64,000 nt of DNA from Halorussus limi (GTDB lineage Archaea; Halobacteriota; Halobacteria; Halobacteriales; Haladaptataceae), in NCBI RefSeq assembly GCF_023238205.1, contig NZ_CP096659.1, positions 744,001 through 808,000 on the forward strand, given 5' to 3'. Within the stretch, counting starts at the first letter, position 1. Each line of letters opens with the position of its first letter. This document shows, in pieces, positions 10,280 through 25,215 of the stretch. The notes beneath the pieces were generated by a model, which saw only the letters and a list, made by a program, of their open reading frames with translations, had not been told where the DNA came from and made no database searches. Both the position numbers and the translations under genes were made by a program.

Positions 10280-10525
10280 ATGTCATCAACGAGGATGTCG
10301 CGCCACGTTCGGCTTGATGACGACCTCTATGAGCGCATCAAAGCAAACAGACAGGAGGGAGAGTCGTTTAGTGATACGATCGAGCGCCTCATCGACAACC
10401 GTTCGCTCCGCGACCTTCAGGATGTCTTCGACAGCGAGCAAGTGGACGAGATGCGAGACGCGGTCAAGATACCAGAGGAAGAAGATACTGCCAAGATCCG
10501 TGAACTTGGCGAGCGCTTCGACTGA
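10280..10525 (+). CDS. VapB-type (ribbon-helix-helix) antitoxin-like protein
   Basis: 81 residues from ATG 10280; ATG 10295 is equally possible. The sequence RHVRLDDDLYERIKANRQEG followed by ESFSDTIERLIDNRSL resembles the N-terminal DNA-binding part of archaeal VapB-family antitoxins (DUF217 group), with an acidic C-terminal tail that could hold a toxin. The usual partner, a PIN-domain VapC, is absent. Instead the next two genes encode an MNT-HEPN pair, with the MNT start 19 bases downstream. It may be an orphan antitoxin or an extra regulator of the downstream pair; only position supports the second idea. Confidence 0.7.
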   Translation: MSSTRMSRHVRLDDDLYERIKANRQEGESFSDTIERLIDNRSLRDLQDVFDSEQVDEMRDAVKIPEEEDTAKIRELGERFD

Positions 10526-10544
10526 TCGGCAACACAACTATATT

Positions 10545-11003
10545 ATGCGGGACGATGAACACTTAGGTATGGTGCAGACAGACGACTCCGCGGTCGAACG
10601 CGTCGAGCTCGACCGACTGCGGTCGTATCTCGACCAAGAGCGAGTCGTCTTTGCGATTCTCTTCGGCTCGCACGCACGCGGAACGGCTGGACCGGACTCA
10701 GACGTGGACATCGCACTCCGTTTCCCGGAGACGTTGGACGCTCGGGAACGATTCCAACTGCGAAATCAAATCGATGCGGACCTCCAGCAGTATGCCGAGG
10801 AGTTTGTGGACGTAAGCGATATCGAGCAACTCCCGACAGCCGTCGCACACGCCGCTCTCCAAGACGGTCTCCTGTTAACTGGCGACGAGCAGGCTGTCGA
10901 AACCTATCACGAGCAAATCAAAGACGAGTACGAATCAACGGTCGACGAGCGAAAACGCCAACAGCGTGAATTCATCGACCGATTAGCAAGCGGAGACGTA
11001 TAA
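10545..11003 (+). CDS. mntA: MNT-domain nucleotidyltransferase antitoxin (MntA-like)
   Basis: 152 residues from ATG 10545; ATG 10569 would give 144. The minimal nucleotidyltransferase active site is intact: G41-S42 in GSHARG and the aspartates D53 and D55 in SDVD. In characterised MntA/HepT systems this enzyme transfers AMP units onto a tyrosine of the HEPN toxin and so silences it. It ends directly before the HEPN start (zero gap), the normal coupled arrangement. The last 40 residues form a charged helix that may contact the toxin. Confidence in the family is high; polyAMPylation is by analogy. Confidence 0.88.
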   Translation: MRDDEHLGMVQTDDSAVERVELDRLRSYLDQERVVFAILFGSHARGTAGPDSDVDIALRFPETLDARERFQLRNQIDADLQQYAEEFVDVSDIEQLPTAVAHAALQDGLLLTGDEQAVETYHEQIKDEYESTVDERKRQQREFIDRLASGDV

Positions 11004-11420
11004 ATGGTCAACGAAGACGTGTTCGTTGACAAACTCCGCCACATCAACCAGTACATCAAGGACCTCGAACAGATGCGAGGTCTCTCGAAAGCCGAATACG
11101 TGGACGATATGGTGACCCAGCGAGCAGTCGAACGGACGTTGATGAACCTCATTCAGGCATGTATCGACCTCGCTCAGCACGTTCGGTCGACAGAAGATCT
11201 CTCCCCGAGCGGAACCGCCAAACAGGAGATACAGGCGCTTGGAGAAGCAGACATCATCTCGAACGAGACGCAGGCGAAACTCGAAGAAGCAGTCGGGTTT
11301 CGAAATATTCTCGCGCACAGATACGGCGACGTCAACCACGACGTTGTGTACGACGTGCTCCACGATGACTTGGAGTGGTTCAATCGCTTCCAACAGGAAC
11401 TCGCTCGGTGGTTCCAATAG
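11004..11420 (+). CDS. hepT: HEPN-domain RNase toxin (HepT-like)
   Basis: 138 residues, all-helical composition, with the HEPN catalytic motif R-x4-H-x-Y at residues 100-107 (RNILAHRY): R100, H105 and Y107. The tyrosine is the residue modified by MntA in studied systems. HepT toxins are RNases that cleave tRNA or mRNA and are kept inactive by the partner MNT protein. It starts immediately after the mntA-like stop. Together the pair is a type VII toxin-antitoxin module that would stabilise the element or protect against phage. All key residues are present, so it is probably active. Confidence 0.88.
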   Translation: MVNEDVFVDKLRHINQYIKDLEQMRGLSKAEYVDDMVTQRAVERTLMNLIQACIDLAQHVRSTEDLSPSGTAKQEIQALGEADIISNETQAKLEEAVGFRNILAHRYGDVNHDVVYDVLHDDLEWFNRFQQELARWFQ

Positions 11421-13848: not shown

Positions 13849-14148
13849 TCCTCGCCTCCCTCAAACTGGCTGATCCCGATTAGCAACAGAGCACCAGCTA
13901 CGAAAGGAATGTCCTCTCGGGGGAACGCCACCTCGCTATCAGCCCTATCGCAGCCGAGCTTCGCTAATTTTCACCGAAAGTCACCTTCCGCAACCGAGAC
14001 CTGAATAGTTTCCTCTGTCTTTCAATTTGTAAGGGAAAATTTAAATAGAAATCTTGCACGGCCTTCCTCACGGACAAGTCGACGGGCCCGAAGCCCCAGC
14101 TAGTCCACATTCGGCTTAGTATCTCTTGTCGGCTTGACCGTTTAAATC
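13849..14148. promoter_or_regulatory. Promoter region of the secretion-like operon
   Basis: 300 bases without a gene. A good archaeal TATA element (AATTTAAATAG, about 14037-14048) lies about 100 bases before the operon ATG, which would give a leader of about 75 bases. That leader contains GGGCCCGAAGCCCC (about 14091-14104), able to form a small hairpin. A second AT stretch, TTTAAAT, lies only a few bases before the ATG and is too close to be a promoter for it. The first 180 bases hold nothing recognisable. Confidence 0.5.
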
Positions 14149-14565
14149 ATGAACGTACTCGAATACTGGAAGGTAACTGTCGAAACGTACTACAGAACGC
14201 TGACCGGCCGACACGGATCGAGGAGCCGGATACTCATGCTATCGTTGGTCCTACTGAGTATTATCGCCGTCTATCCCGCAAGTGCCCAATCGCTGGGTGA
14301 ATCGTTCTGTCAGAGTGATATGGCGGACACGATTCGGAATGGATTTACTGTCCTGCAATTTGGCGGCCCCCTCGTCGGCGGCTTTCTCGCACTCGGTGCG
14401 ACCGTCGCTATTCCGACAGTTCGCCGAGCCGATATCAAGAAGGAACTGAAGACAATTCGGAACCAAGGATTCATTTGGGGAGTTATCGTCGCACCGCTGG
14501 CGACGCCGATTCTCCAGTTTGTCCTCAACAACATCGTCGCTGGAGGGGCGAGTTGCAGCTTCTAA
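14149..14565 (+). CDS. Pilin-like two-helix membrane protein (VirB2/TrbC-like position)
   Basis: 138 residues. A basic N-terminus is followed by a hydrophobic signal segment ending PASAQS at about residues 43-48, then two hydrophobic helices (about 65-85 and 105-130) separated by a basic loop (RRADIKKELKTIRNQG), plus two cysteines (SFCQ and the C-terminal SCSF) that could form a disulfide. This size and two-helix topology match VirB2/TrbC-type conjugative pilins. It is the first gene of an operon ending in a VirB4 ATPase. Sequence similarity to bacterial pilins is not obvious by eye, so the call rests on topology and context. Confidence 0.5.
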   Translation: MNVLEYWKVTVETYYRTLTGRHGSRSRILMLSLVLLSIIAVYPASAQSLGESFCQSDMADTIRNGFTVLQFGGPLVGGFLALGATVAIPTVRRADIKKELKTIRNQGFIWGVIVAPLATPILQFVLNNIVAGGASCSF

Positions 14566-15083
14566 GATCCCTTCTTGGAAGCCTCTGTGTCCTTACCCTC
14601 GTCGTCGGAGCGCCAGTCACATCCACGACCAAACCCGTTGCACAACCACCGCCTGACCCGGACCACGGTGTGAACAATTCAACTCACTATACGCTCTGGT
14701 CGAGGGACAGCGACGAGCGTGCGTCGGGCCAATCGAGTCGGTGGTCAAATCACTCAACAGAGCCGATGCGGGAAGTAGCGAAGCGAACGGACGTTCCATA
14801 CGAGTCGCCACCGCAAGCAGTCGAACGGTGGAACAGCGGCGATATCGACGACTTCCCGCAGACAACTGCCAACCAATCGATTCATCCGCCGAACGCGACG
14901 CTCACGAATGGAAGCTTCGTGAAGGATGCCTACGCCTCGGTGTTTGCCATCCAACCCTCGACGCGCGTTCGACGGTCACCTACAGAGCAACCGCTCTACG
15001 TCGCTCCGAACGGCACAGTCCTCGGGACGATTGATTACCGAGTCGAATCTCCGGACGACGTGAGTTCGGACGGTCAGACGTGA
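14553..15083 (+). CDS. Secreted ectodomain, N-terminal portion (split gene, part 1)
   Basis: About 176 residues from a TTG at 14553 that overlaps the end of the pilin-like gene. The start gives a signal-peptide-like N-terminus (QLLRSLLGSLCVLTLVVGAP). The rest is Thr/Ser/Asn-rich with several N-x-S/T sequons (NNST, NHST, NQSI, NATL, NGSF), as expected for an exposed glycoprotein. It has no membrane anchor, and its last strand (LGTIDYRVESPDDVSSDGQT) stops abruptly at a TGA. The next frame begins with an overlapping GTG and continues in the same style, so the two parts may be a single protein split by a one-base shift. No enzymatic motif is visible. Confidence 0.6.
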   Translation: MQLLRSLLGSLCVLTLVVGAPVTSTTKPVAQPPPDPDHGVNNSTHYTLWSRDSDERASGQSSRWSNHSTEPMREVAKRTDVPYESPPQAVERWNSGDIDDFPQTTANQSIHPPNATLTNGSFVKDAYASVFAIQPSTRVRRSPTEQPLYVAPNGTVLGTIDYRVESPDDVSSDGQT

Positions 15084-16267
15084 CTTGGACGCTAAGCGAC
15101 CATCGGATTTCGGAGGTACGCCTGAAAGTCGACGGGACCACCGAGAACACGACCACGGGCACACATACGCCCACTATCGAGTACTCCTCGATTGCAACGT
15201 ATCCCGGTGAATCCCATACGGTGACGTTGGTCGCTGAAATCAGCGCTGCGGTACGGAAACGGACCAAGACTTGCACTACCCGAGCCGCCGATGGTGAGTG
15301 CCAGTCGTGGAATGTTACCTCCGAACGCTCAGTCGAGACCGTTACCGTACGTGACTCGATCGACGTGGTTGAGTATGACCTCTCGGTCTCCGGATTCAAG
15401 ACGCGGTATCCCGATGGCGACCTCGGATTGGTCGTCTACAAGAACCATCCGTGGCGTGGCTATTCAATGTCGAACGGAGACGTGCGTGGCGTCTGGCGGT
15501 TCTACTCGGCAAGAGACCCCGCGTGGGATACGCTCGTGACGAGTACTGAGAACGGGGAGACAGTAGCGCCGTCGTCACTACAACCGCTCCAAGTACATGC
15601 CTATCCAAGCGAGACAGGGCCAACGGCGGTGCCGAGGCGGAGTGTACTGCTTCTGGACACCTACGGGACGAAAGAACGGCCGCCGTCGTTGCCGACTTCT
15701 GTCCGGCTTCAAGTGGTCGAACAGCCGTACATGACCAGTTACGGTATTGCGACTCGGGCACAGACACCGTCTCGAACGCTTTCAAACGTCACGGCGACTG
15801 GCCTCGTTCGCGGCGTCGATGCCGACGTAACTGACTCGTCGTTCGCTGATATTCCAGTCAACGAGAGTAACCTGACGATCAGCGTCGTCAACCGGACGGA
15901 AGAGCGGGTCACAGTCTCGGTAACGCTCTCGGATCGAACAACGGGCGACCCAATCAACACAACTGGCCGTACTGGCTACGTCGTCCTTGACGGAGAGCGC
16001 GTGAACACGTCCGAAAACGGAACCATCGTCAAAATCCTTACTCGGCCGAGTAGTGGTATCTCGGCACGCTACGAGCCAGGCCATTGGTGGCGACACGCCA
16101 CCGGCTACGTCGGCGATAGCGATAGTCGATACGTTCGGAGCGGCGGCCTCGATATCGCCTCGATATTGTATCGCATCGCCGTCTTCGCTTCTGTCTACCT
16201 CTTCGGCGTCTTCATCGTCAGTCGATTCACCGGCTGGAGACTCTGGCCACCGTGGAGGGGACTATGA
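15080..16267 (+). CDS. Ectodomain with C-terminal membrane anchor (split gene, part 2)
   Basis: 395 residues from GTG 15080, whose GTGA overlaps the previous stop. The protein is beta-rich with many sequons (NTTT, NVTS, NVTA, NESN, NRTE, NTTG, NTSE, NGTI), and near the C-terminus it has one hydrophobic helix (ASILYRIAVFASVYLFGVFI) followed by a short basic tail. That is a type I membrane topology with the long N-terminal part outside. There is no signal peptide in this frame, so export would require continuity with the preceding ORF. It probably forms an envelope-exposed part of the secretion or mating apparatus. Its stop overlaps the next ATG by 4 bases (ATGA). Confidence 0.65.
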   Translation: MTWTLSDHRISEVRLKVDGTTENTTTGTHTPTIEYSSIATYPGESHTVTLVAEISAAVRKRTKTCTTRAADGECQSWNVTSERSVETVTVRDSIDVVEYDLSVSGFKTRYPDGDLGLVVYKNHPWRGYSMSNGDVRGVWRFYSARDPAWDTLVTSTENGETVAPSSLQPLQVHAYPSETGPTAVPRRSVLLLDTYGTKERPPSLPTSVRLQVVEQPYMTSYGIATRAQTPSRTLSNVTATGLVRGVDADVTDSSFADIPVNESNLTISVVNRTEERVTVSVTLSDRTTGDPINTTGRTGYVVLDGERVNTSENGTIVKILTRPSSGISARYEPGHWWRHATGYVGDSDSRYVRSGGLDIASILYRIAVFASVYLFGVFIVSRFTGWRLWPPWRGL

Positions 16268-17655
16268 GTAGAAAACAAGCAACGCTACGACGCTTCGCGG
16301 CGCAACTACGGAATCGAATCTCTGCCAGAACACTAAGCGTAGCACCGTTAGCCGTCTTTGTGGGCCTAATCGTCGCCGTTCAACCTGCGCTTGCCCAGGA
16401 CGGCGGTGGTGGCTCGCTCGGTGACGTTATCGTCTGGGCGATCAAGGAAGCGCTCCGAGTCCTATTTAGTCCAATCAAGGGCGTCATCCAACAGCATGCG
16501 GACGCCCTCGTGACAACAGTCGTCGAGACACCGCATCCCGAAACGGTGTTCAGTCGGCCCACGAATGGTTCATGGCCGAAAATCTATGACTACTACTGGA
16601 ATGCTATTATCCCCGTCTCGCTGTTCCTGTACGCGCTTGCGCTCGGACTCGTGATCTTCCTCGAATCGACGAGCTACCTCTTCAGTAACTACCACCGGAC
16701 GAAACTCAAGAAGCGAGCCTTCTCGGGACTACTTGGACTGCTAGCTTGGTGGTGGGTCGATGCACTCGCTCGCCAACTACTGAGCGAGCTGACTGTCTTC
16801 TTAGTCCCCGATCTCTCGCAGGTGTCGCTGTTCCAGACGCTGTCGTTTAGTTCGATGGGAGCTCTCGGCGTCGTCCTTACCCTTAGTGCGGACTTCGGAC
16901 TGTTCGTCCTGTTGGCGCTCATCTATTTCCTGCGGCAGGTCGCCCTCTATCTGTTTACGCTCATGATGCCGCTGTTGATCGTGTTCTGGATTCCTGGTAT
17001 CGGGCCGTTCACCATGGTCTCTCGATTGATGAAACGGCTAGCAGGATTCTACGTCCCATTCTTGTTCATGACACTCCCGGTCGCGCTCCTGTTCCGTCTT
17101 GGAGAGCTTCTCGGGTCGAGCTTCAGCCTTTCGATGGGCGGAGTCGGTGCATGGCTCACAGCCCTCGTCATCCCCATCGTCGCCGTCCTGTCGCCGTTCG
17201 TCCTCTTCTGGCAGGCCGGAGCAATATTCTTCATGGCCGACCGCATCGGCCGCCACGCATCTGCGCGGCGGACGACAGGACGAATGAAGACCGCCCGCGA
17301 GCAGAGCCAGACGGTCGCCCAGGGTGGCCGAAACTTCGCTCGCGGCGTACGTGATGACTCGCCTGTGAGACAAGACGGACAGACGATGTCCGGGTCGGGT
17401 AACTCGCGGGCACACGCCGCAGGTTCAAGGCTCAATTCCGCGGGGACGCAACTCCGGGATAGCCTCCAAACGGACAGCGGTGAATCCGGCAGTACGTCGA
17501 ACGCTGGTGGCACGCAACGATCTGGCTCCAGTAGCCGCGACGTAACCCTCGAAAACCTTCGTTCTGACGACCGCCGTTCGAGTAGCTCGCAGAGCCAATC
17601 TGACGACCGTTCTGAGAATAACTCTGATTCAACCACTAGTTCCTCCAACCAATGA
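16264..17655 (+). CDS. Polytopic membrane protein, VirB6/TrbL-like
   Basis: 463 residues from ATG 16264. A signal-like segment ending in ALAQDG (about 45) is followed by about six or seven hydrophobic helices up to residue 330 and then a long Ser/Gln/Arg-rich hydrophilic C-terminal tail of about 130 residues. This layout, a multi-spanning core with a long polar tail, is that of VirB6/TrbL channel proteins of conjugative type IV secretion systems. It lies between the anchored ectodomain and the VirB3/PrgI-like gene and overlaps both by 4 bases. Sequence-level similarity to bacterial VirB6 cannot be judged by eye. Confidence 0.6.
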   Translation: MSRKQATLRRFAAQLRNRISARTLSVAPLAVFVGLIVAVQPALAQDGGGGSLGDVIVWAIKEALRVLFSPIKGVIQQHADALVTTVVETPHPETVFSRPTNGSWPKIYDYYWNAIIPVSLFLYALALGLVIFLESTSYLFSNYHRTKLKKRAFSGLLGLLAWWWVDALARQLLSELTVFLVPDLSQVSLFQTLSFSSMGALGVVLTLSADFGLFVLLALIYFLRQVALYLFTLMMPLLIVFWIPGIGPFTMVSRLMKRLAGFYVPFLFMTLPVALLFRLGELLGSSFSLSMGGVGAWLTALVIPIVAVLSPFVLFWQAGAIFFMADRIGRHASARRTTGRMKTAREQSQTVAQGGRNFARGVRDDSPVRQDGQTMSGSGNSRAHAAGSRLNSAGTQLRDSLQTDSGESGSTSNAGGTQRSGSSSRDVTLENLRSDDRRSSSSQSQSDDRSENNSDSTTSSSNQ

Positions 17656-18665
17656 AACAACGTGACCCAACGAAACGGATTCCGAAATCACTCGGTACAG
17701 ACACGAAACTATTCGGGAGTTACACACTGACGGATCTCTCAGTCGCACTCCTGCCCGGTGTCGTTGTCGTCCTCGTGATGCAGGTCGTTCTCCCGGCCGG
17801 TCTTACCGTCGGCGGGTATCGCGTCCAAGGACTAACGTTGCCCGTCGCTGGACTCGCAATCGCGTTCGGTGGATTGTTCGTCTATCTCACGCCGGCCTAC
17901 GCGTCGAGTCTCGACTGGCTAGCGACGTTCTTCGACTTCCATACGAGTTCGACTGAACACGCTCACGAAGAAGCAAAGGAGTATACGCAAGTCGAACAGG
18001 TCCATCCCGAGCGTGGTGCTATCGAACGGACCGACGGCGTCTTCGTCGGAATGGTACAGGTACGTCCGCCGACGATGGCCCTTGCAACTGACGCAGAGTG
18101 GGAGGCGAAGGCAACCGCCTTCCGTGACTTTCTGAATACGACCATCGATTTCCCGCTCCAGATTTACTCGACGACCCAGACGTTCCCTGCAGACGAGTAT
18201 CTGGACCGATACAGAAGTCGACTCGATGACGAAGACGTGCAATCGAACCCACAGCTCGAAGCGCTCATCGAACACTATGTCGAGTGGTACGAGGCGGAAC
18301 TCGACGAGCGCCAGATGACCATCCGTGATCACTACGTTATCATTCCTGTTGCACCACGGGAGGTGCAGTTCGAACGCGAGAGTCTGACACAGAAACTCGC
18401 CGAGCTACCGTATCTGGGCCTGTTCGTGCAGGCATGGTTCGCCCCGCGCCGTGCCGAACAGCAAGAAGCGATGGTCGATACGCTCAACGAACGCCTGCGG
18501 CAGGTCCAGACTGGACTTCGAGAAATCGACGGCTGTAACGCAGACCGAGTTGCTGTGACCGAAGCGACCCAACTCATCGGAGAGTTCTGGGCGGACGAGA
18601 ACCTCGACTACGGTGATATGGAGTCTGTTCTGCGAACGAGTCCGCTTGTTCGGAGCAATACATGA
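17652..18665 (+). CDS. Membrane protein in VirB3/PrgI position with cytoplasmic domain
   Basis: 337 residues. The N-terminus reads DPTKRIPKSLGTDTKLFGSY, followed by two hydrophobic helices (about 30-52 and 60-83) and a cytoplasmic domain rich in acidic residues (RGAIERTDGVFVGMVQVRPP, HYVEWYEAELDERQMTIRDH). A short two-helix protein directly upstream of VirB4 is the usual VirB3/PrgI arrangement. Here it is fused to a domain resembling the non-ATPase N-terminal region of VirB4 proteins, so VirB4 may be split over two genes. It overlaps both neighbours by 4 bases. Confidence 0.6.
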   Translation: MKQRDPTKRIPKSLGTDTKLFGSYTLTDLSVALLPGVVVVLVMQVVLPAGLTVGGYRVQGLTLPVAGLAIAFGGLFVYLTPAYASSLDWLATFFDFHTSSTEHAHEEAKEYTQVEQVHPERGAIERTDGVFVGMVQVRPPTMALATDAEWEAKATAFRDFLNTTIDFPLQIYSTTQTFPADEYLDRYRSRLDDEDVQSNPQLEALIEHYVEWYEAELDERQMTIRDHYVIIPVAPREVQFERESLTQKLAELPYLGLFVQAWFAPRRAEQQEAMVDTLNERLRQVQTGLREIDGCNADRVAVTEATQLIGEFWADENLDYGDMESVLRTSPLVRSNT

Positions 18666-20605
18666 TTCGAGAGAAACTACCCTTCTGGAGTAGTAGTGAA
18701 GAGACGGGCAGCGAACACGACGATAGTTCGGATAATCCGACTGTCGCGCATGAAAATGACACAGGTGACCTTGACACTATTCCGGACATTCACCAGACTA
18801 TCGTCACGCCGTCGAGTATCGACGAGCGACCGAACGCAGTTCAGACCGGGACGGATTGGACTCAGACGCTTTGGGTTGGGGAGTATCCCGATGCGCCCAC
18901 GGACGGCCTCTTCGAGTCGCTGTATTCGACGGCCGAAACACGCCAGACGGATATCTCACTCCATCTCGACCCACGCGATACGCGAGCGACTCTCGACTCA
19001 CTCGAAAACCAAATCGAGGACCTCGAAGCCGACTACGAATACCTCTCCGAGAAACGCCGTGCCGGAGCGCGTGGCGTCAAGAAAGACCTCGAAGACTACC
19101 AGGAGATGTACGACGTCCTTCGGAACACACCAACGAAGGCGTTCGATGTCTCGATGTATCTGGCCTCGCGTGGACCGTCTCAGAACGACCTTGGGACAGA
19201 TGCCGTCACCAGCACGGCACGGCGTTCACCTGCGAACCTGACACCGGTTACTCCTCGGTGGTCGCAACTGGACACGCTCATCTCTGGGAGTCCTGTCGGC
19301 GTCGACAAACTAAATGAGACGATGAATACGAAGACGCCGATGTTGAGCGGTGCAGTCGGCGCGATGTTCCCGTTCGTCTCTGGAGCCTTCGCCGAGCCCG
19401 GCATTGAGTATGGAACATACGCGCTCAACGAGAGTCCGCTAATCTTCGACCGTTTCAATCGAGAGACGGGCTACTGCATGATGGTCATCGGGAAACTTGG
19501 CGCAGGCAAGTCCTTCTCGACGAAACTCCACCTCACCCGGCGGGCAATGTACGACGAAGACTCGGTCATCGTCATGCTTGACCCCTTGGCTGGCTTCGCT
19601 GGCGTGAACGATACCCTCGGCGGTGAGCGCGTAACTGTCGGCGGGACGCGAGGGTTCAACCCCCTCGAGCTGAAGGCAACTCCAGACTCGGTGTTCGCAG
19701 AAGTACCGGACTTGGACCCGTGGGGAGAGCAGATCTCGTGGGTGCTCACGTTCTTCGAGACGTTCTTCGCTCACGTCGCCAACAACCCGCTCGGCGACCG
19801 CAAGCAGACGCTTCGCCGGACAGTTCAGGAGACCTACGAGCGACAAGGCATCACTCGTGACCCTGCGACGCATCACAAGGAATCGCCGACGGTACGAGAC
19901 GTTATCTCGACGCTTGAAGACCTCCTGCAGGATCCTGAGGCATTCGGGTATACCACTACAGGGGAACAGGATAGCGTCCGCGCTGATGCACAATCGCTTC
20001 TAAAAGATCTCCGGCCATCGTTCCGGCCTGAGGGAGACCTTGCTAACCTCGCACGTCAGGCCGAGTTCGACCTTGACTCGAAGGTCATCTATCTGGATCT
20101 CCACCAAGAGGAGGGGACACGTGGACGCACAGAGACGAGCCTGATGATGCAGGTTCTATTCAACGCGGTCTACGAGCGGGCCAAACAGACCGACAAGCGA
20201 GTCGTGTTCGTCATCGACGAAGCGCACTATTTGATGAACGACGCAACATCGCTAGAGTTCCTAGAGACGGCGGTGAGGCACAGTCGCCACTACGACCTCT
20301 CGATTCAGTTCATCACTCAGACTGGTGGAGAGTTTGCGTTGACGCCGGAGGCTCGGACGATTGCGAATCTTTGTTCGGTGACGCTCGTCCATCGCGTGAA
20401 AGAAGAAGCCGAGAAACTCGCTGAGTGGTTCGACTTGAGCGAGCGCGAGGTGAACTGGGTACGAACCGCAAAGGCCGGGAACGAAGACGATGGATTCTCT
20501 GAAGCATTGCTCGGTATCGACGAAGAAGGCTGGTTTCCGCTTCGTGTCCGGGCGAGCGACTTCGAAGCAGACGTTATCGATCGTGGCGGTGATCGTATGC
20601 GATAG
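18662..20605 (+). CDS. VirB4-family conjugation ATPase
   Basis: 647 residues. Walker A is GKLGAGKS at 277-284 and Walker B is VVFVIDEAHY with D519-E520, followed by SRHYDLSIQFITQTGGEF, the sensor region typical of VirB4/TraC/TrwK ATPases. The N-terminal 60 residues are acidic and probably flexible, and a coiled-coil segment lies at about 115-150 (LENQIEDLEADYEYLSEKRR). It would power assembly of the secretion channel at the inner face of the membrane. It is the last gene of the operon. A VirD4 coupling protein and relaxase do not follow, so the system is either partial or depends on genes elsewhere. Confidence 0.88.
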   Translation: MIREKLPFWSSSEETGSEHDDSSDNPTVAHENDTGDLDTIPDIHQTIVTPSSIDERPNAVQTGTDWTQTLWVGEYPDAPTDGLFESLYSTAETRQTDISLHLDPRDTRATLDSLENQIEDLEADYEYLSEKRRAGARGVKKDLEDYQEMYDVLRNTPTKAFDVSMYLASRGPSQNDLGTDAVTSTARRSPANLTPVTPRWSQLDTLISGSPVGVDKLNETMNTKTPMLSGAVGAMFPFVSGAFAEPGIEYGTYALNESPLIFDRFNRETGYCMMVIGKLGAGKSFSTKLHLTRRAMYDEDSVIVMLDPLAGFAGVNDTLGGERVTVGGTRGFNPLELKATPDSVFAEVPDLDPWGEQISWVLTFFETFFAHVANNPLGDRKQTLRRTVQETYERQGITRDPATHHKESPTVRDVISTLEDLLQDPEAFGYTTTGEQDSVRADAQSLLKDLRPSFRPEGDLANLARQAEFDLDSKVIYLDLHQEEGTRGRTETSLMMQVLFNAVYERAKQTDKRVVFVIDEAHYLMNDATSLEFLETAVRHSRHYDLSIQFITQTGGEFALTPEARTIANLCSVTLVHRVKEEAEKLAEWFDLSEREVNWVRTAKAGNEDDGFSEALLGIDEEGWFPLRVRASDFEADVIDRGGDRMR

Positions 20606-22233: not shown

Positions 22234-25215
22234 ATGACTGACGTACGCGAGGCGACCGACGACCTCCTCGCGGAGAAACCAAATCTCGAATCGGACCTGC
22301 GCGAAGTGCTCTCGGTCGACGAGCGCACTAACGGGTGGTCCTTTGACGACGTGCCACTCGACTCGGGGACGTTCGGCGAACTCGTCTCGCGCGACATCGT
22401 CGCCAAGGACAGTGACGCATACGAAGTAAGAGACCCCCGCGCTGTTCGGGCGGTCCTCGACGGCGATTCCGACACTGCGGTCGAATCCGAACGCGGCGAC
22501 GGACCGAACCTCCCGTCGCTGTCGCTTCCATCGGTGTCGATAGCGGAGGCGGGCGCGCTCGGTGCCGCGTTGGCGTTCGTCCTGCTGATGCGAACCTACA
22601 TCTATCCGAGCGTATTCCGCGGCGACTATGTCGTCCTCCCCTCGAACGACCCATACTACTACCGCTACTGGGTCGAGCAACTCGCCGCGGACGCGACTGG
22701 TATCTTCGACTTTAGTGTGCTTTCCAGGGTTCCCAGCGCAGTGGCGAAAGGCGAACCCCTGATGGTCGGAACGCTGTGGTGGCTCACCAACCTGCTCGGC
22801 GGGGCCGACGCCGCGGGATGGGTGCTGGCGTGGTACCCCGTCGTCTCCGCGCTCCTCGTCGGGGTGCTGGTGTACGGTATCGCGGTCCGGGTGACTGGTG
22901 ATCGGCGAGTTGCACTCGCGTCGGTCGTGTTTCTCGCCGTGATTCCGGCGTTCGCCTACCGAACGGGGCTCGGATTCGCCGACCACCACGCCTTCGACTA
23001 CCCGTGGCTCGCGCTGACCGCGCTTGCGCTGGTCCTGCTGGCCGACGTGGACCGAAATGACTTGGCCGAGATTCGGCCGTGGCTGGCGGCGGGCGTGTTG
23101 GGCGTCGCAGTGGCCGGACAGGTGATGGCATGGGAAGCCGGACCGCTACTCATCGGTGCGCTCGGTGCCTACGTCGCCGTTCGGGCCGCCGTAGACGTTC
23201 GAGTCAATCGGTCGCCGCTCGTGTCGAGTACGCCGATTCTGGTCGGACTGGCGTTCGCATCGGTGCTCACCCATCTCGCTCACACCGGCTTCGGATGGCA
23301 TACCGACGTAGTGGCCTACTCGCCGATGCTGTTATTCGTCGGCGTGCTGGCCGTGTCACTTGCCGGCGAAGCAGTCCGTCGGGCCGAGATGCCAGCGTTC
23401 GTCCTCGGCGGGGCCGAAGTCGCCGGTGTGCTGACCGGCTTGTTGGTTCTCCAGACGTTCCTGCCGACGTACGCCGCCCGATTGAACCAGCGGCTGACCT
23501 TCCTCCTGTTCAAGTCGGGACCGGCGGAGACCCAGTCGATATTCGCGGGCGGTGCGTCCGGATTCTTTATCGGCCCGATTCTCGAACTCGGCTTCGCGTG
23601 GTTCCTCGGCTTGCCGATGTTGGCGCTGGTCGGGTGGCGGGCCTACCGGCAGGAACGCCGTGCGTGGCTCGTCGTCTCTACCTACGGGTGGTACTTCCTC
23701 GTGCTGGCAACGTTCCAGCGGCGGTTCGTCGGCGAGTTCGCGCCCTTCATCGCCATCTTCGCGGGCTACGGCTTCGTCGTCCTGTCTGCCAAGCTGGACG
23801 TGACTTCACCGGTCGCGCTCGGCGATGACGAACCGCATGGCGAGACGTGGCGACCGTTGTTCGGGCTCCCGGAACGGGGTACGGTCACGATGGTTGTGAT
23901 CCTCCTGCTGTTCGTGACTAGTGCGGGCGCGGTGCAGACCGGCGTCCGACACGAGCAGGTTAAAATCGAGGACGAGAAGTTCGAGGCCGCGACGTGGATC
24001 GATGAGTACGCCGACGAGCAAGGGTTGGAGTATCCGGAGAACTACGTACTGAGCAAGTGGGGTCGCAATCGTGTCTATAATTACTTCGTGAACGGCGAGG
24101 CGAGGTCATACAAGTTTGCAGAGAACCACTACGAATCATTCCTCTCTTCGCGGAATCCCGAATCACAATATCAAAAGCTGAACGATAGGGTTGGGTTCAT
24201 CGTCACGAAAGACATCGACGTGCAGAAGGTTCCGAAGAACTCCAACTACGCCCGACTCCATCACCGGTTCGGAAGTGCCGGAACCAACGGCCGGACTGGC
24301 GCAGGTCATTACCGGGCGCTCTACGCCAGTGACAGCAAGTCGATCAAAGTGTTCGGACTCGTCCCAGGTGCGAGGATTGTCGGCAACGCTTCGCCGGGCG
24401 AGAAGGTGACGATCTCAAAGGAAGTCGAAGTTGAAGGCGCGAAGTTCGACTACGAGCGGACGGTAAAGGCCAACCCCTACGGGGTTTTTAGCGTGACCGT
24501 TCCGTACGCCGGTAAGTACACCGTCGACGGAGACACCCAGTCGGTCTCCGAAGTCGCAGTGACTTCGGGGCAGCTCGTGAAATCTCACCGGCGAAGCGGC
24601 CTCGCGCATTGGCCGTTTGAGAAGGCCAGGGACAAAGCGGTGTACGATCGAGTCGGCGGCCATCGCGGAACGGTGAACGGATCTACATCGCAGGTAGACG
24701 GCGTCTCAGGAAAGGCGCTGGCATTCGATCAGAACAAGACGAAGTACGTCGAAATGAACGTAACTGCCCCCCAGCAGTTCACGCTCAGCCTGTGGGTGAA
24801 GCCCGACCGAATCGACGTAACCGAGAAGAACGACTATCGCCGCCTGATTAGCAGTCCAGATCTCTCCAACGTTCTCGTCATCGGTGAGGGCAGACAAATA
24901 GTATTCCGTGTTCCTGGAGTTGAGAGAAGTTACTTCGGAGCGAGCGAGGTTCCGGTCGGTGAGTGGTCCCAAGTCACGGCCACCTACAACGGTACTCACC
25001 GAACGATTTACGTGAACGGCACGCAGGTCGGAACCGACAGAATCGGCAACAGAATAGTCGACTGGAACGGACAACTCCGACTTGGAAGCGGATACAGTGG
25101 GGAAACACGGCACGCCTACAACGGTGCAATAGACGAGGTTCGCATCTTCGACCGCGCACTTACGCCGGAAGAGGTCCGTCAGCGCTACGAGGCGGATAAC
25201 GCAACTGCGACGTAA
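22234..25215 (+). CDS. AglB/STT3-type oligosaccharyltransferase with C-terminal LamG-like domain
   Basis: 993 residues. After a 100-residue soluble N-terminus, about a dozen membrane helices carry the first acidic motif SNDPYYYRYW (about 139-148) and the second acidic motif ADHHAFDYPW (about 249-258), as in STT3/AglB. The soluble region should hold WWDYG; the corresponding site reads SKWGRNRVYNYF with W609, a known-looking haloarchaeal variant lacking the Asp. From about residue 790 the sequence becomes a concanavalin-type LamG domain (FTLSLWVKPDRID, WSQVTATYNGTHRTIYVNGT, GAIDEVRIFDRALTPEEVR). The enzyme should transfer a lipid-linked glycan to Asn of exported proteins; the lectin-like tail could bind glycan. 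It is probably a paralogue of the housekeeping AglB. Confidence 0.88.
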   Translation: MTDVREATDDLLAEKPNLESDLREVLSVDERTNGWSFDDVPLDSGTFGELVSRDIVAKDSDAYEVRDPRAVRAVLDGDSDTAVESERGDGPNLPSLSLPSVSIAEAGALGAALAFVLLMRTYIYPSVFRGDYVVLPSNDPYYYRYWVEQLAADATGIFDFSVLSRVPSAVAKGEPLMVGTLWWLTNLLGGADAAGWVLAWYPVVSALLVGVLVYGIAVRVTGDRRVALASVVFLAVIPAFAYRTGLGFADHHAFDYPWLALTALALVLLADVDRNDLAEIRPWLAAGVLGVAVAGQVMAWEAGPLLIGALGAYVAVRAAVDVRVNRSPLVSSTPILVGLAFASVLTHLAHTGFGWHTDVVAYSPMLLFVGVLAVSLAGEAVRRAEMPAFVLGGAEVAGVLTGLLVLQTFLPTYAARLNQRLTFLLFKSGPAETQSIFAGGASGFFIGPILELGFAWFLGLPMLALVGWRAYRQERRAWLVVSTYGWYFLVLATFQRRFVGEFAPFIAIFAGYGFVVLSAKLDVTSPVALGDDEPHGETWRPLFGLPERGTVTMVVILLLFVTSAGAVQTGVRHEQVKIEDEKFEAATWIDEYADEQGLEYPENYVLSKWGRNRVYNYFVNGEARSYKFAENHYESFLSSRNPESQYQKLNDRVGFIVTKDIDVQKVPKNSNYARLHHRFGSAGTNGRTGAGHYRALYASDSKSIKVFGLVPGARIVGNASPGEKVTISKEVEVEGAKFDYERTVKANPYGVFSVTVPYAGKYTVDGDTQSVSEVAVTSGQLVKSHRRSGLAHWPFEKARDKAVYDRVGGHRGTVNGSTSQVDGVSGKALAFDQNKTKYVEMNVTAPQQFTLSLWVKPDRIDVTEKNDYRRLISSPDLSNVLVIGEGRQIVFRVPGVERSYFGASEVPVGEWSQVTATYNGTHRTIYVNGTQVGTDRIGNRIVDWNGQLRLGSGYSGETRHAYNGAIDEVRIFDRALTPEEVRQRYEADNATAT

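Follow-up and report, generated by a model that had tools for sequence, protein, structure and literature searches.

Two kinds of described system invite comparison with the locus considered here. The archaeal DNA-import systems Ced and Ted contain homologues of VirB2, VirB6 and VirB4, and are called domesticated T4SS derivatives by the authors of PMC9905601; and integrated elements containing VirB4 have been described in haloarchaea (PMC9259645). For Halorussus together with type IV secretion, a literature search returned, in the accessible parts of the sources, nothing beyond soil-metagenome work. Our locus lies in a stretch of 64,000 nucleotides (the window) on a 3.58 Mb contig of the Halorussus limi genome. 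To judge from its genes, it is a haloarchaeal conjugation-type operon (pilin/VirB6/VirB4), since a VirB4-like ATPase is encoded there with a VirB6-like channel protein beside it. Two neighbouring frames in this operon are parts of one gene, which differs in length by one base from its intact copies in Halorussus aquaticus and was recently under purifying selection.

The operon and its interrupted glycoprotein gene

The operon genes all lie on the forward (+) strand. The VirB2/TrbC-like pilin candidate (138 aa; 14149–14565) has a signal peptide and two hydrophobic helices, recognised by eye. One of 12 aligned members of its family matches Pfam T4SS_pilin (1.6e-9) and two match TrbC/VirB2 weakly, while the window's own protein matches neither; among solved structures VirB2 was reached only at E = 2, ranked below two unrelated proteins. 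Beyond the glycoprotein gene comes that for the VirB6/TrbL-like channel protein (16264–17655; Pfam TrbL_3, PF19590, 2.7e-25), then one for a 337-aa protein (17652–18665) that is probably the N-terminal part of VirB4 (a weak match to NCBIfam TrsD at 7.5e-6, below cut-off, with no match in Pfam or among solved structures), and then one for the VirB4-like ATPase itself (647 aa; 18662–20605; AAA_10, and NCBIfam VirB4 models at up to 3.7e-42, below cut-off), which matches VirB4 profiles only from about position 190–300 onwards. Homologues of the 337- and 647-aa proteins occur as separate stretches in all of 15 loci (L027–L041), the shorter being frameshifted in L028 and the ATPase lying about 1.4 kb further on in L031, L036 and L037. 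As far as these sequences indicate, the two-gene VirB4 is a conserved split in this operon, and nothing comparable was found for the glycoprotein. Neither a relaxase nor a coupling protein was recognised among the window proteins scanned. Further upstream, at 10314–11420, are two ORFs that by eye resemble a nucleotidyltransferase/HEPN toxin–antitoxin pair, in the part of the element that lies outside the alignment with Halorussus aquaticus.

The glycoprotein frames lie between the pilin and VirB6-like genes. The first (14553–15083) has a TTG start, 176 aa and a TGA stop at 15081–15083; the second (15080–16267) has a GTG start and 395 aa. They share the four bases GTGA (15080–15083), in which the TGA overlaps the in-frame GTG. 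The initial annotation had taken them for one exported glycoprotein divided by a one-base frame change, and its coordinates and overlap were both confirmed. The TTG, which lies inside the last bases of the pilin-candidate gene, is a plausible start because the TTG-coded pattern L-[RQ]-[VL]-[LI] also opens 11 of 30 relatives extracted, just past the pilin gene. An export signal is present in the N-terminal piece and absent from the C-terminal piece (both read by eye), just as had been claimed. The pieces hold seven and nine sequons, respectively, against 16 in the intact relative, where one lies at the junction.

What would the undivided protein look like? A full-length model of the intact relative was poor (mean pLDDT 44.5), because the usable sequences numbered only 11, ten of them close to each other; it nevertheless places beta strands at residues 148–273 and 439–526 and a helix at 531–560. 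The helix, corresponding to 16142–16231 (+) of the window, is a probable C-terminal membrane anchor, as the initial annotation had anticipated. A model of residues 109–284 alone was better (mean pLDDT 65.3), and predicts an Ig/Fn3-like beta-sandwich at residues 146–277 (14988–15382, +; pLDDT in blocks of 61–92 for residues 149 to 278). The best structural matches of this domain are Ig and Fn3 domains, with a middling top VIA-align Z of 8.9 (to CD2); the second beta region resembles macroglobulin domains, also at a middling Z of about 7. On these models, the break would fall inside a single Ig/Fn3-like domain, leaving two of its strands in the N-terminal piece and five in the C-terminal one. 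The first frame had been said to stop in the middle of a strand: it does end within one beta-domain, but just where a predicted strand (175–193) begins. The N-terminal piece (14553–15083, +) would carry the export signal, the N region and the first two strands of the domain, and the C-terminal piece (15080–16267, +) the rest of the domain, a sequon-rich body, a second beta domain and the C-terminal helix. By its position and topology, the protein appears to be the operon's large exposed glycoprotein, its glycosylation being putative. It may help mating cells to make contact, or serve in assembling the pilus. Efficient mating in Haloferax volcanii is reported to need N-glycosylation (PMC5496957), in a fusion-type system that may not be the same.

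Intact and broken homologues across the order

A relative of the glycoprotein is found in 181 of the 392 genomes searched in the order. Among the matches listed, 146 of 150 places (the window included in the 150) have an open frame of 527–739 aa. The exceptions are the window (410), H. caseinilyticus (435) and two frames whose start is no more than 250 bases from a contig end. One frame spans both parts in 67 of 74 loci (L001–L074), a count made from the frames listed per locus; the 74 include duplicates (the same genome twice), and L012, in which an in-frame deletion removed most of the body, is counted as one frame. The expectation of single-ORF homologues in other haloarchaea was thus borne out, and the opposite pattern, of homologues consistently in two genes sharing the window's junction, appeared nowhere among the 150 listed places and the 74 loci. 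Aligned relatives other than the window's are 30–56% identical to the intact Halorussus aquaticus copy, and 22 aligned relatives gave no Pfam family match at E 0.01. A viral origin of the glycoprotein was also considered and was rejected, no relative being found in the viral contigs scanned.

The breaks that do occur are scattered along the gene. That in the window corresponds to residue 175/176 of the intact relative. The nearest other split, upstream of it, lies between residues 127 and 154 of the reference, in L007 and L074 (which have the same frames, and are taken as one H. caseinilyticus plasmid). Those of Halobellus limi (L069) and Haloarcula marismortui CP039134 (L070) are near residues 515 and 406, and that of Halobacterium salinarum KBTZ01 version 1 (L073) is between about 372 and 428; the seventh of the seven loci without a single frame, L025, is a remnant. 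The CP039134 annotation divides the broken gene into two that share four bases, with the same look as in the window. In the other record of Haloarcula marismortui ATCC 43049 (NC_006394, L071), however, it is one frame, annotated as one gene. Likewise, the Halobacterium salinarum KBTZ01 record CP128378 has the gene split in version 1 and annotated as one gene in version 2 (L135). Since a second record of the same strain has the gene intact in these two strains, some splits in the family are sequencing errors.

How the break may have arisen

Halorussus aquaticus has two copies of the operon (L027 and L028), each with the glycoprotein in one 571-codon frame from the same TTG, which supports the proposal of a single type I protein some 570 residues long. 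Homology extends along both parts, the N-terminal piece being 91% identical to residues 1–175 of the intact copy and the C-terminal piece 90% identical to the remainder. In a 6.67 kb block aligned with L027 (13947–20620), the sole intragenic gap is one base at the junction (15077–15083, +), the only other gap being of two bases at 13955, which is intergenic. The same one-base difference separates the window from L028, in which two further one-base gaps affect that copy's own virB6-like and 337-aa genes. The Halorussus limi genome also has, on other contigs, two paralogues in single frames of 578 and 585 aa. Against L027, dN/dS is 0.25 for the N-terminal piece, 0.21 for the C-terminal piece and 0.23 for the pilin gene, and falls to 0.15 (VirB6-like), 0.09 (337-aa) and 0.05 (VirB4-like ATPase), with no stop codons in any of them. 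These values show that both glycoprotein pieces were under purifying selection until recently, and the lesion is thus either young or a sequencing error.

Our preferred reading, which we hold with moderate confidence, is that the two frames are one type I glycoprotein gene of a conjugation-type operon, broken by a real and recent one-base change that caused loss of function. The intact product would be a type I protein of some 570 residues, with an export signal, the Ig/Fn3-like domain, the sequon-rich body, the second beta domain and the C-terminal anchor. The change in length by a single base would bring a stop inside the Ig/Fn3-like domain, so that the cell would make at most an exported, unanchored fragment of 176 residues and, by termination–reinitiation at GTGA, at most a 395-residue fragment lacking an export signal; neither would be expected to serve as the surface protein. 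The surface role, the loss of function and the reality of the lesion are the inferred parts of this account. The copy affected is chromosomal, and in several Halorussus genomes this operon is decaying.

The state of the locus in Halorussus is indeed what favours a real lesion, because the same locus is decaying in other genomes of the genus. At only one of six Halorussus places (in five genomes), an H. aquaticus copy, are all tested transfer-operon genes in one frame; elsewhere the operon is frameshifted, deleted or a remnant. L028 has frameshifts in its TFB, VirB6-like, 337-aa and AglB genes, which may be either decay or local assembly errors, and L027 has one near the end of AglB. In G006, roughly residues 120–426 of the glycoprotein have been lost, while the pilin, VirB6-like, 337-aa and ATPase genes match with no stop and the TFB match has one stop. 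G005 and G007 retain only remains near AglB (a 5'-truncated virB4 and the 3' end of the glycoprotein, respectively). In 26 of 31 loci searched (L029–L041, L068–L074, L135, L137 and L140–L143) the glycoprotein gene is succeeded by one whose product resembles, by eye, a Tat-exported lipoprotein. This lipoprotein gene is absent from the window, L027, L028 and L136 (G006), and also from L138 and L139; in its place the window has the VirB6-like gene, whose start shares the ATGA with the glycoprotein stop. In the window, on the other hand, the locus is not plainly dead: no other transfer gene is interrupted, and selection on virB4 is strongly purifying (dN/dS 0.05).

AglB follows the operon in the window and in both H. 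aquaticus copies; the window's AglB-like oligosaccharyltransferase is encoded at 22234–25215, and its C-terminal residues 789–988 match NCBIfam TafC (3.4e-16, below cut-off). In G006 no AglB was found within 20 kb, and the genes that come next look, to the eye, like those for a sugar transferase, a sulfatase and an epimerase in the window. The Halorussus operons are linked in this way to AglB or to glycan genes. As a general feature of such operons the AglB linkage was rejected: among 15 loci (up to 10 kb on each side) it was seen only beside the two H. aquaticus copies.

A sequencing or assembly error, with the gene unbroken in the strain itself and the deposited sequence one base off, is a possible cause but the less probable one, a recent real lesion being about twice as likely. 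The two splits of this gene that vanish in another record of the same strain (in Haloarcula marismortui and Halobacterium salinarum KBTZ01) make such an error plausible, as does the fact that both pieces look selected, with no second lesion. Against it, the junction is outside any homopolymer, with no three-base run in the overlap, and elsewhere in Halorussus this locus is broken by lesions of different kinds. A check of the assembly, weak in itself, also found no multi-frame case among 41 comparable Halorussus limi genes (six had a stop inside the match), and the reverse comparison found one multi-frame case and five with a stop among 41 in Halorussus aquaticus, samples that are too few and noisy to exclude poor assembly.

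A more far-reaching scenario, speculative and to our minds improbable, is that the glycan-cluster-linked operon of Halorussus is shedding its surface parts in order. The lipoprotein would have gone first and the glycoprotein next (by the frameshift in the window and the internal deletion in G006), with the pilin, VirB6-like and VirB4-like proteins kept under purifying selection, the whole becoming a reduced Ced/Ted-like machine free of a mating-surface glycoprotein that was perhaps a liability, for example as a virus receptor.

Might the two pieces instead be a true two-part protein, made separately by termination–reinitiation at GTGA and re-associating outside the cell? The short stop/start overlap that this calls for is present, and the −4 overlap (ATGA or GTGA) is, according to PMC10666635, by far the commonest unidirectional junction in Haloferax volcanii, where it couples translation; moreover, the operon already holds the conserved two-gene virB4. 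The overlap by itself is, however, uninformative, because about half of all one-base losses in the gene yield one like it: in simulations on the intact relative, the first stop reached after the loss shared bases with a GTG (702) or ATG (168) in frame in 870 of 1707 cases. Such overlaps are frequent because a TGA in the shifted frame needs a codon ending in TG followed by an A. Given also that none of the relatives examined shares the junction, that the C-terminal piece has no export signal (by eye) and that the cut runs through one predicted domain, we consider a two-part protein very improbable.

Recoding, the remaining cause that had been proposed beside an indel (the likelier) and a sequencing error, is a very remote prospect: the frames are one base apart with a common open stretch of 49 nt (15035–15083), as would suit programmed −1 frameshifting or transcript slippage to a full-length protein, but this overlap lacks a slippery heptamer and nowhere has the same base three times in a row, folding of the 80 nt past the first stop is no stronger than in shuffled sequences (z −0.87), and the relatives read straight through and need no recoding. 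A scan for promoters and terminators, using bacterial patterns in this archaeal host, likewise found nothing above shuffles.

Significance and comparison with described systems

The case in the window is that of an ordinary broken or mis-sequenced gene, and not of some novel form of split protein. One candidate for a split or recoded protein is thereby removed from consideration, and it is clear how easily a one-base loss can mimic a coupled gene pair in a gene of this kind. At the same time, attention is drawn to a widespread glycoprotein of haloarchaeal DNA-transfer operons that is without a Pfam match in 22 members, and to a Halorussus chromosomal locus in which the loss of this glycoprotein can be followed.

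How does the locus stand beside the systems described at the outset? Like Ced and Ted, it has a pilin candidate, a VirB6-like channel and a VirB4-like ATPase in one locus; it differs in that the sole similarity to their proteins to be shown was a weak match of the window's ATPase to CedD (1.2e-5). The fusexins (Fsx1) of haloarchaeal integrated mobile elements, as presented in PMC9259645, are likewise membrane proteins of a VirB4 element. The fold of the window's glycoprotein, in contrast, looks Ig/Fn3-like, with middling scores, the sequence matched no solved structure (profile A2, up to E 1), and Fsx1 did not appear in the structural lists, the fold models being too weak to argue firmly against it. 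The closest likeness is with the glycoproteins of haloarchaeal VirB6/VirB4 operons, an unnamed family with single-frame copies on haloarchaeal plasmids and chromosomes. The window's copy differs from these in being cut by a one-base change and in standing without the lipoprotein gene that most of the loci have, but it resembles them in sequence (90–91% identity to Halorussus aquaticus) and shares with them the position after the pilin gene, the signal peptide and the C-terminal anchor.
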